Shown: positions 40,801 through 63,619 of the stretch, piece after piece | How positions within the stretch are numbered: the first letter of the stretch is position 1 | Layout: each line of letters begins with the position of its first letter | Source of the DNA: Faecalibacterium longum CLA-AA-H243 | Lineage (GTDB): Bacteria > Bacillota > Clostridia > Oscillospirales > Ruminococcaceae | Direction of reading: 5' to 3' | Assembly: GCF_020687245.1 (NCBI RefSeq) | Contig: NZ_JAJEQG010000005.1 | Span: 1-64,000, forward strand | Length of the DNA: 64,000 nt | Notes under the pieces: model-generated | Told to the model about the DNA's origin: nothing | The model's input: the letters and a program-made list of their open reading frames with translations, nothing else | Databases searched by the model: none | Translations under genes and position numbers: made by a program

Positions 40801-40857
40801 CAGCAGCGCCCTGCCTGCCGTCCCCTCACGGACAGCAGCCGGGGCGCTGCTGTTTTT
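40801..40857 (+). terminator. Terminator of the malQ operon
   Basis: CAGCAGCGCCC and GGGGCGCTGCTG form the stem, followed by TTTTTG and more T. Confidence 0.88.
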
Positions 40858-41002
40858 GCGTTTTTCTTCAAATTTCACACAACATTTTTTCGGAGTCTCC
40901 GGCCTGCTTTGCTCTTTATATTTTATCGTTTTTTCGTTTGTTTCTCCTGGATTTTCCGTTTTGGAGTCCCAAATCCCGTTCCGATTATGTTTTTTCGCTC
41001 TC

Positions 41003-41031
41003 TTGTTGTTTTTGGGCAATTATGCTATAAT
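41003..41031 (+). promoter_or_regulatory. Promoter of the MAM-like pair
   Basis: TTGTTG (41003-41008) and a perfect TATAAT (41026-41031) have 17-bp spacing. The upstream 40860-41000 is AT-rich and gene-free. Confidence 0.8.
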
Positions 41032-41090
41032 TCAGGTAACTTAGTCCCCGTCTGTGGACGGAGCGCATGTGCGAAAGGAGCATTCCCACT

Positions 41091-41570
41091 ATGGAACTTA
41101 CATATCAGAGCCCGCTGATGCCGGCTTCCTACACTGCCCTCTCTGCCGATGAAATGACCTATATTGATGGCGGTGCCATCCAGATAGGCTCTTATCTCAT
41201 CGAATTCCATCCCGAGGCCCTGCTTCAGTCTGTGGTCAACTTCACGGTCAACTTTGGCCAGCTGATGGGCAAAGCCGCCCTCGGCACAGCCGTTGGCGGC
41301 CTCATCCTGATGCACAAGGATGGTCTGACTCTGTCCCAGTCGGTCTCCTATTACTGGGATGGCCAGAACAAGGCCGGCAAAGCTGCCACTGTGGCGGTCG
41401 GCGCTCTCGCTGGCTGGTACGGCGCAATGCAGGCTATCCAGATCTATAACACGGTCAAGTCCATCTTCATCGAGCTCAAGAATGCTTACGCGCAGACCAA
41501 GGCAAATATTGCCGCGTCCCAGCAGCAGGATGCCGGCATCACTGACCCCATCGTGGCTGCAGCTGCCTGA
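41091..41570 (+). CDS. MAM-like secreted protein with double-glycine leader
   Basis: The 159-residue protein starts with a leader containing MPASYTALSADEMTYIDGG. This closely resembles, from memory, the start of Faecalibacterium MAM (MPANYS...EMTYVNGG), including the double glycine where PCAT-type ABC exporters cut (after Gly28). The mature part holds two glycine-rich hydrophobic segments (LMGKAALGTAVGGLILMH and AATVAVGALAGWYGAMQ) and an Ala/Gln-rich tail, so it is probably membrane-active or self-assembling. GAAAGGAG precedes the ATG at 41091. It is followed 39 nt later by a related small gene. No exporter is nearby. Confidence 0.7.
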   Translation: MELTYQSPLMPASYTALSADEMTYIDGGAIQIGSYLIEFHPEALLQSVVNFTVNFGQLMGKAALGTAVGGLILMHKDGLTLSQSVSYYWDGQNKAGKAATVAVGALAGWYGAMQAIQIYNTVKSIFIELKNAYAQTKANIAASQQQDAGITDPIVAAAA

Positions 41571-41609
41571 GTCTGTTTGATTTGACGGAGTGATAGAAAG
41601 GAGTCGTTT

Positions 41610-41939
41610 ATGAAACGCATCCAGATGCCTTCTTCCTATGCTGTTGTACCGGACGGAGAAAAAGCCCTTCTTGGCGGCGGCGGCGCATTTCGTGACGCAT
41701 GGACCTCATTTACGGACCATCTCCGTTTCACTGATTTCTTCTTTAGAGGTGGACTGCTCTCTCTCTCCATCTCGTTCATTCCGAAGCTGCTGTTCAATGT
41801 GGTCAAGGCCGGCTTCAATGCCGTGGAAGGCGTCCACACCTTCTTCTTCGGCGGACCGAGCAAGGCTGCAGAAGACCTTCAGACCTACAAGAACGATATG
41901 AGCGCTCTGCGTGCAGACGCAAAGTCTCAGCGCGGCTGA
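41610..41939 (+). CDS. Second MAM-like leader protein
   Basis: The 109-residue protein begins MKRIQMPSSYAVVPDGEKALLGGGG. It shares the MPxSY start and glycine cleavage region with the upstream protein, although the EMTY motif is replaced. The mature part has a hydrophobic amphipathic centre (GGLLSLSISFIPKLLFNVVK) and a charged C terminus. GAAAGGAG precedes the ATG. With the upstream gene it forms a two-peptide-like unit, as in two-component bacteriocins. The function is unknown. Confidence 0.65.
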   Translation: MKRIQMPSSYAVVPDGEKALLGGGGAFRDAWTSFTDHLRFTDFFFRGGLLSLSISFIPKLLFNVVKAGFNAVEGVHTFFFGGPSKAAEDLQTYKNDMSALRADAKSQRG

Positions 41940-41956
41940 TTTTTCCTGAAATCAAA

Positions 41957-42004
41957 AATGCCCTGCGGCGGTGGATCCTCACCATGCCGCAGGGCATTCT
42001 TTTT
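41957..42004. terminator. Terminator after the MAM-like pair
   Basis: AATGCCCTGCGGC and GCCGCAGGGCATT form a 13-bp stem followed by CTTTTT. It also lies at the end of the convergent galK paralogue. Confidence 0.88.
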
Positions 42005-46458: not shown

Positions 46459-47964
46459 CTACGTCTCAGGGGAAAAGCTCCAATGTATATCAATATTTTC
46501 CCCGTCCAGATCTATACGGCGGATAAGGCTATGGACAAGCTCCCGCCTTTCGTCCAGAGTGCCGTTGTCCAGAACGTCCTCTGCCCCGACCAAGGCAGCC
46601 CGGGCAGCATCCAGGCGCTGGGTGGGCGGCTCCTCTACGGCCTCCGCCAGGGCGGCTTCCACGCCGTCAATTTCCGCCTGGAGCTTTGCCACGCGGTCTC
46701 CGACCATAGAGGCAGGCAGTGAACCGCCCATCTGGTACAAGTCCAGAACACGCCCCATCTGCGCCCGCAGATCGTTCAGGCGCTGTTGCAGCGCAGCCCG
46801 GCGCTGGGCTACATCTTCGTCCTGCTGCGGCCCGGACACCGCCAGCTCAAGCGCCGCCGGGTCAAACGCCAGCTTCCGAATCTCGCCCTCTATAATAGCG
46901 TCCAGCTTCGCCACCGCCCAGCGGTCATTCCGGCAGTTTGGATCGCGGATCATGTGCTTTGCGGATTTTGCCCGAGAGTAACAAACGTAGTATGGCCAGT
47001 AGCGCTTATTCTCGCCTCTTCCCGAGTAATTGCCACTGGCAAAGTACCGGGCGCCGCAGCGGGCGCACCAAATAATGCCGCCCAGCAGGTGCGTGGATTT
47101 GAACGGAGAATTCCGCTCCATACCATCCGAACAGGTACGCTTCCAGCTTGAGGTGGCAAGCCGGGCAGCGGCAGCGTCAAAGGTTTCCTGCGAGATCAAC
47201 GGCTCGTGCTGGCCGTCATATACCTTTTTTGCCCAGTTTATCTTCCCAGTGTACAGCGGGTTTTTGAGGACGTCCCGCACTGTGGTATCAGACCCCCAAT
47301 CGCCGTCCTTTGTGGTGTAGTGCGCAGCCATATATTTACGAATGCGGTTCACCGGCCAGCCTTGGAGGTATAGAGAGAACACCTCCCGCACCTGCATTGC
47401 CTCGTACTCGTTCACTACAAGCCCAGCGCCGCCCTCGGCAATGGTCTTGTAATCGTAGCCGATGGGAGCAAAGCCGCCGCCATGGAAGAGGCCGGCCTTT
47501 GCCCGACCGACACGGCCAACCGCCATGCGTTCCCGGATCTGTTCACGTTCCAGTTGGGCGAACACCGACAGGATGCCGATCATAGCCCGGCCAAACGCCG
47601 TGGATGTATCAAAGTTTTCGTTCATGGAAACAAAGGCGCAGCCGTTTTTTAGGAACACGTCCTCGATCAGATACAGGGTATCCTTTTGGGAGCGGGACAA
47701 CCTGTCCAGCTTCCAGACCAAAACAGCATCGCACTTTTTCGCCTGCACAAGGGAGATCAGCTGCTGCATACCCGGACGTTCTAGCTTTGCCCCGGAAAAA
47801 CCCGGATCGGTGATGACCTGGGCAACCACCCAGTCCTTCGCCAGACAGTACGCCTTTAGTCGCTCCTGCTGCTCGCTGACAGAATAGCCTTTTTCGGCCT
47901 GCTCTCTCGTGCTGACGCGGACATAGCACACCACCCGCAGGCGGGCGGAATCCATATCGCGCAT
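46459..47964 (-). CDS. Large serine recombinase (phage integrase)
   Basis: This 501-residue site-specific recombinase has the N-terminal resolvase domain: VVCYVRVSTREQAEKGYSV holds the catalytic Ser, with LVWKLDRLSRS further on. A Recombinase domain (about residues 160-270) and a zinc ribbon follow (IIWCARCGARY with a later Cys pair), then a C-terminal coiled coil (about 380-470). It would integrate and, with a directionality factor, excise the element. The ATG at 47964 has AAGGGG 8 nt upstream; a TTG at 47982 is the alternative. It lies at the left end, as expected for an integrase. Confidence 0.95.
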   Translation of the reverse strand: MRDMDSARLRVVCYVRVSTREQAEKGYSVSEQQERLKAYCLAKDWVVAQVITDPGFSGAKLERPGMQQLISLVQAKKCDAVLVWKLDRLSRSQKDTLYLIEDVFLKNGCAFVSMNENFDTSTAFGRAMIGILSVFAQLEREQIRERMAVGRVGRAKAGLFHGGGFAPIGYDYKTIAEGGAGLVVNEYEAMQVREVFSLYLQGWPVNRIRKYMAAHYTTKDGDWGSDTTVRDVLKNPLYTGKINWAKKVYDGQHEPLISQETFDAAAARLATSSWKRTCSDGMERNSPFKSTHLLGGIIWCARCGARYFASGNYSGRGENKRYWPYYVCYSRAKSAKHMIRDPNCRNDRWAVAKLDAIIEGEIRKLAFDPAALELAVSGPQQDEDVAQRRAALQQRLNDLRAQMGRVLDLYQMGGSLPASMVGDRVAKLQAEIDGVEAALAEAVEEPPTQRLDAARAALVGAEDVLDNGTLDERRELVHSLIRRIDLDGENIDIHWSFSPET

Positions 47965-47975
47965 AAAATCACCCC

Positions 47976-48004
47976 TTTTCAAATTCAGGGCGACGTGCTA
48001 CAAT
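47976..48004 (+). promoter_or_regulatory. Promoter of a candidate RNA antisense to the integrase leader
   Basis: TTTTCA (47976-47981) and TACAAT (47999-48004) have 17-bp spacing. A terminator follows at 48107. Confidence 0.4.
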
Positions 48005-63544: not shown

Positions 63545-63619
63545 GCGTGCATAGCTCAACAGGTAGAGCGCCCACCTTCCAGGCGGGTGACGTTGGTTCA
63601 AGACCCGCTGCACGCTCCA
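63545..63619 (+). tRNA. Phage tRNA-Gly (UCC anticodon)
   Basis: A 75-nt cloverleaf is visible. The acceptor GCGTGCA pairs with TGCACGC, the D arm is GCTC...GAGC, and the anticodon loop CTTCCAG gives UCC. A TTCAAGA T loop and an encoded CCA complete it. The anticodon stem has one A-C mismatch and the T stem one U-C mismatch. It lies 16 nt upstream of the ParB-domain gene, inside the phage. Confidence 0.8.

Follow-up and report, generated by a model that had tools for sequence, protein, structure and literature searches.

What do two small adjacent genes between malQ and a convergent galK encode in Faecalibacterium longum CLA-AA-H243, and how might their products leave the cell? The genes (neighbor names assigned by eye) lie in the window analyzed here, a stretch of 64,000 nucleotides (assembly GCF_020687245.1, contig NZ_JAJEQG010000005.1, positions 1 to 64,000, forward strand). 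Gene A (41091..41570, + strand) encodes a putative MAM-like precursor of 159 amino acids (aa), and gene B (41610..41939, + strand) a putative precursor of 109 aa from a family without a Pfam or NCBIfam match. An initial annotation made from the DNA letters had proposed a new branch of MAM-type proteins with features of a two-peptide bacteriocin; its two adjacent open reading frames, and the string EMTYIDGG in the first, were found in place. We consider it probable that A and B are co-transcribed precursors that use the export route of MAM, the Microbial Anti-inflammatory Molecule of Faecalibacterium, and yield exported helical proteins, probably located at the cell envelope.

The predicted leader of A comprises residues 1-28 (41091..41174, + strand) and ends in EMTYIDGG; that of B comprises residues 1-24 (41610..41681, + strand), with Val at -12, Glu at -8, Lys at -7, Leu at -4 and Gly-Gly at -2/-1, the conserved glycine pair being Gly23-Gly24. 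Neither protein starts with MP(A/S)SY as first described; the motif follows a short N-terminal extension, at residues 10-14 in A and 6-10 in B. The register P-x2-[YF]-x6-E-x5-GG is common to MAM, A and B leaders. This register, defined after the alignments had been inspected, matched 24 of 26 A, 25 of 26 B and 25 of 29 MAM leaders, and a relaxed form matched all 26 B leaders (counts out of 26 refer throughout to the window plus 25 fetched relatives). The four MAM leaders that missed it are shorter and come from the F. longum genome itself and from genome G011. The two F. longum MAM genes (L119:7778-8200 and L119:11087-11479) carry the leader MMMPANFTAVNSEVVYGG, which is three residues shorter and falls outside the common register. 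Of 3228 other open reading frames of at least 50 aa in the window and in loci L119-L159 (many of these loci having been retrieved for leaders of this kind), 13 contained the register, and by eye all 13 are further leader proteins.

Individual leader positions were conserved as well. Ile, Leu or Val at -12 together with the glycine pair was present in 26/26 A and 26/26 B proteins, and Glu at -8 in 25/26 and 26/26, respectively. When compared with the pattern of PCAT substrates ([ILV] at -12, E at -8, L/M at -7, a hydrophobic residue at -4 and GG), A of the window agreed at 5/5 positions and B at all except -7 (Lys). A leader profile built from MAM only, which included one F. longum MAM leader and a member letter-identical to the other, ranked the two MAMs first in this genome and A third at E=6.6e-5, followed by five further leader proteins (8.4e-5 to 0.038) and a next match at 0.4. 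Using the single published F. duncaniae peptide as query, A was found at E=0.0018 and B at E=0.16. The likeness to the MAM leader first suggested for A is borne out by the profile; the leader of B is supported by the register only. The N-terminal MAM motif as published, MMMPANx(8,11)VxGG, was present in 0/26 A and 0/26 B; its presence in 29/29 MAM proteins is circular, because these were picked by MMPAN. By eye, a second MAM-like gene with an MTFPANY leader was seen at several loci (L065, L066, L068, L070-L072, L075, L080 and L089), and such genes are missed by the published motif.

An exporter of the PCAT type, for which the initial annotation had suggested a search elsewhere in the genome, was identified there. 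The F. longum genome (2.96 Mb, 99.98% complete) contains one gene with a C39 domain, an ABC exporter (PCAT), and this gene is surrounded by two MMMPAN (MAM) genes, a DUF559 gene, an HlyD gene and an immunoglobulin-like (Ig-like) gene, close to the mam-locus layout described in PMC8836110. Gln8, Cys14 and His92 of the exporter occupy the positions published for F. duncaniae (PMC12184118). Presence of PCAT and of the A/B cassette agreed in 29 of the 31 genomes of the genus (25 with both, 4 with neither, and one exception of each kind), a genome with a weak C39 match (G027; 32.6 bits, 293-aa frame) being scored as PCAT-negative; Fisher's exact test gave p=7.7e-4 but takes related genomes as independent, which counts against its use as support. 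The exceptions were G002, with the cassette and no PCAT found (77% complete), and G010, with PCAT and no cassette (79% complete).

Judged from their sequences, both proteins are most likely cargos of PCAT that would be cleaved and exported. The two genes would be transcribed together as precursors, and the single PCAT of this genome, together with the HlyD and Ig-like products encoded beside it, would recognize both leaders, cleaving A after Gly28 and B after Gly24. The mature helical proteins would then be exported from the cell and would most likely stay at the envelope like MAM, which is reported to be the most abundant envelope protein (PMC12184118); A would be a building block similar to MAM, and B would act as its partner or as an anchor. 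The envelope location and the A-B partnership are guesses by analogy with MAM.

The predicted mature A (41175..41567, + strand) is a helical protein of 131 aa and 13.7 kDa. Alignment of mature profiles with hhalign gave a score of 28.9 for A and MAM (P 2.8e-4), which was reached by 0 of 200 column shuffles of A (maximum 20.1); column shuffles erase helix periodicity, and reversed profiles, which preserve it, scored 12.4 and 15.0. A-MAM was the best of the 10 pairs among five families, the next being A-S at 17.1; the additional S (six sequences) and P (five sequences) groups were told apart with rough patterns, P being a mixture, and 28 sequences remained unassigned, including A and B of the window, the extra-generic L227 and several sequences that look MAM- or S-like. 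Mature A most likely represents a diverged lineage of MAM proteins, and mature B (41682..41936, + strand; 85 aa, basic) most likely a member of a new family that shares the leader register. For the proposed new MAM branch, the support is a weak but controlled likeness of mature A to mature MAM; mature B showed no such likeness.

Several results weigh against the reading of A and B as cargos of the MAM route. The A-MAM alignment had an hhalign probability of only 41%, and in the other direction a score of 26.8 and a probability of 27%. The B-MAM score was 9.9, a value reached by 77/200 shuffles, and the A-B score was 14.0, reached by 4/200, so that B is not clearly A-like. At -7, 20/26 B proteins carry Gln or Lys in place of Leu or Met, and the MAM-only leader profile does not list B at E<=10 in its own genome. 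The published catalytic residue Asp136 corresponds to Ile at position 136 of the F. longum PCAT, where Asp139 lies in a GDP motif. The cassette and PCAT are on different contigs, and the cassette lacks the promoters of the MAM genes. The structure models were weak (predicted local distance difference test (pLDDT) 61.8 and predicted template modeling score (pTM) 0.30 for A; pLDDT 60.3 and pTM 0.24 for B), and a search of the A model against the PDB returned 8 matches, the best at E 5.1. On the supporting side, the helices predicted by this weak model of A, at 41-76, 81-91 and 94-149, occur in the order published for MAM, at 37-70, 74-86 and 100-119 (PMC12184118), although the two appear alike in outline only.

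To the extent that layout and conservation can indicate it, A and B look like one transcription unit whose genes would be co-transcribed. A putative promoter element, CTTGTTGTTTTT-N7-TATGCTATAAT with an extended -10, was located at 41002..41031 (+ strand), where the extended -10 TGCTATAAT occupies 41023-41031 and the TATAAT box 41026-41031. At least 7 of the 8 letters of TGnTATAAT were present upstream of A in 26/26 relatives compared with 6% of base shuffles, and all 8 letters in 18/26 compared with 0.2%; these shuffles preserve base content only. The motif starts at -66 to -69 in 24/26 sequences and at -88 and -92 in the remaining two. The stretch from CTTGTT to TATAAT is conserved among the relatives, and the sequence 5' of CTTGTT diverges. 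A sigma-70 scan listed no promoter in the cassette region, which we attribute to the weak -35, and the case for the promoter thus rests on conservation among relatives. Candidate ribosome binding sites (AAAGGAG, + strand) precede A (41074..41080) and B (41597..41603), 10 and 6 bases upstream of the start codons used, respectively.

A hairpin with a T-run 3' of malQ (40801..40852, + strand) probably acts as a terminator and sets the cassette apart from the sugar operon, and a second terminator hairpin (41954..42001, + strand) lies between B and galK; the folding energy of the 61-base stretch examined there was -32.4 kcal/mol (z -6.1). Both the TATAAT box and the strong downstream terminator of the initial annotation lie where it placed them. 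In the F. longum genome the promoter element had one exact match (itself), one match with 1 mismatch and two with 2 mismatches. A promoter shared with MAM genes or with the other leader genes was also considered and rejected: by eye, the element was not seen 5' of 24 of the 29 MAM genes inspected, nor 5' of five F. longum paralogs. An extended -10 by itself, matching at 7 or all 8 letters, occurred at 7/24 of these MAM genes and at 1/5 paralogs.

We searched 100 genomes, including that of F. longum, of which 31 belong to the genus of the window and 69 do not. B was found in 26/31 genus genomes and 0/69 others; A had matches in 23/100 genomes, all of the genus, some being leader-only matches to other paralogs. 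A lies directly upstream of B in 26/26, with a gap of 24-111 bases. One genome whose MAM is identical over its first 42 residues to the published F. duncaniae peptide (G020) contains both A and B, at L126:5916-6359 and L126:6387-6713, respectively. Identity to the window was 24-79% for A and B and 68-98% for the flanking proteins (galK-like gene excluded). Compared with the nearest relative (L120), the ratio of nonsynonymous to synonymous rates (dN/dS) was 0.124 for A and 0.178 for B, and 0.03-0.11 for seven flanking genes; synonymous divergence (dS) was 0.95 and 0.75, and 0.27-0.55 in the flanks. A and B are real constrained genes under purifying selection that evolve faster than their neighbors, silent sites included, and allele exchange could explain this faster change. 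A phage or plasmid origin was examined for A only and rejected, A having no match in phage and plasmid records at E<=0.01.

The main alternative is that A and B form a two-peptide or large class II bacteriocin, exported by PCAT and jointly permeabilizing competitors, and we regard this as unlikely. Both proteins carry double-glycine leaders, and A matches Pfam Bacteriocin_IIc (PF10439) at E=4.5e-4 and 20.6 bits, under the gathering cut-off of 27.1. Among the A relatives, 3/26 match Bacteriocin_IIc and 2/26 match Lactococcin (E<=1); B has no match, the Pfam matches among its relatives look like chance, and neither protein has an NCBIfam match. GxxxG motifs were identified in 24/26 mature A proteins, though in just 6/26 mature B, and a hydrophobic stretch is conserved in B, reading SISFIPKLLF in the window and SFTFVPxLLF in many relatives. 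The mature parts had been called hydrophobic and Gly/Ala-rich. The best 19-residue hydropathy was 1.57 for B and 1.26 for A of the window, both below the usual membrane-helix mark of 1.6, which was passed by 24/26 B and 11/26 A relatives; Gly plus Ala amounted to 27.5% of mature A and 19% of mature B (composition values for B use 84 residues, the pattern having cut one residue late in some sequences, window B included). Of that description, Gly/Ala richness applies to A and not to B.

By definition, the peptides of two-peptide bacteriocins are short once matured and an immunity gene is linked to them, and bacteriocins usually vary in presence between genomes. In contrast, the predicted mature parts here are long (131 and 85 aa), the A/B unit, whose next genes are malQ and galK, contains neither an immunity gene nor a transporter gene, and the cassette location is mostly fixed across the genus. 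malQ is upstream in 19/25 relatives; the 3' neighbor is an opposite-strand galK (75-89% identity) in 11/25, a same-strand galK-like gene (43-47% identity) in 10/25 (L134 and L136-L144) and neither type in 4/25. No clean empty site was found among the five genus genomes without B, because in four of them malQ is only 48-50% identical; the fifth (G008) has lacI, permease and malQ (67%) in order with the sugar operon not whole, and its 12 kb of retrieved sequence showed no leader gene. In addition, 3/3 MAM proteins tested gave no Pfam match at E<=0.1. A two-peptide bacteriocin, as first proposed, is not our first choice because of the length of the mature parts, the lack of an immunity gene and the mostly fixed locus.

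It is somewhat less likely again that A and B are secreted host-facing effectors that dampen NF-kB in the manner of MAM, rather than envelope parts. A appears to be a distant relative of MAM, and most MAMs tested dampen NF-kB in cell tests, whereas the MAM of CNCM4541 does not (PMC8836110); a host effect of A or B would be a guess by analogy. Least probable is that A alone is a PCAT cargo and that B, its partner in the cytoplasm or membrane, merely begins like a leader protein by chance or as a relic, as the missing profile match and atypical -7 residue of B could suggest, since the relaxed register, Glu at -8 and GG are all kept in 26/26 B.

If A and B are cargos of the MAM route, they would belong to a wider set. 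A combined leader profile, built with A and B types included and containing leaders from these same genomes, identified 9 leader proteins in the F. longum genome and 6-8 in eight other genomes at E<=0.5, part of these counts (6-9) resting on weak matches of 0.02-0.054. Five more leader proteins of F. longum (L145, L146, L147, L193) are a tandem pair and a third protein encoded on one contig (C77), a fourth on another (C5) and a fifth, of 78 residues, on C4. The two genomes without a full PCAT had no credible leader protein: none was found in G027, and the one match in G008 (E=0.45) lies inside an 861-aa frame. In a sample of 148 genomes from the family, which included at least two from the genus, three genomes matched the combined profile at E<=0.01, F. 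longum included; the other two were G125 (2e-7; 85% complete, 6% contamination) and G032 (0.009; by eye the frame is not a sensible protein).

In a genome outside the genus, a leader of this type heads a small protein (L227) near genes that by eye resemble agrB and agrC, a context that resembles peptide-signaling or bacteriocin loci and that gives the bacteriocin alternative a further point in its favor. Elsewhere in the window, a 507-aa protein about 4.5 kb downstream of the cassette (46459-47982) is by eye a large serine recombinase, and tRNA-Gly(TCC) at 63545-63619 is the sole RNA gene in the window by ARAGORN and Rfam gathering scores.

A broader proposal, which we offer tentatively and hold to be rather doubtful, is that the Faecalibacterium envelope is built or decorated by a whole group of helical proteins exported through PCAT (6-9 in each of the nine genomes counted, of several unlike mature families), with MAM the first described and A and B a genus-conserved core pair, a MAM-like block and a small partner, assembling on the surface. 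If true, a protein surface layer would be delivered via a bacteriocin-type exporter and not by the general secretion route. MAM, produced by a key gut commensal, is studied as an anti-inflammatory protein, and its published motif sets tight bounds on the family. If 6-9 cargos share this route, including the A/B pair of 26/31 genus genomes, work on MAM export, envelope structure and host effects has covered one member of a larger set. No description of the A/B pair was found among the titles and abstract openings surveyed; A may be among the psi-BLAST sequences of PMC8836110, and the passages of PMC4573289 consulted mention Faecalibacterium only in a reference.

Comparison with known systems places the pair nearest to MAM. 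A and B share with MAM the leader register, the GG site and a PCAT in the genome (PMC8836110, PMC12184118), and A alone also resembles it in helix order, in outline, and distantly in its mature profile; MAM differs from the pair in its locus, its promoter and its MMMPAN motif, which A and B lack, as well as in the pairing of A with B, and from B in the mature part. Class II (PF10439) and two-peptide bacteriocins resemble A and B in leader type, in having two linked small genes and in their hydrophobic stretches, but the mature parts of A and B are longer, their locus is mostly fixed genus-wide, no immunity gene was seen and the Pfam score is below cut-off. PCAT1 and its cargo CtA of Clostridium thermocellum (via PMC12184118) likewise combine a C39 exporter with a cargo cut after GG, whereas in Faecalibacterium one exporter would serve cargo genes on several contigs.
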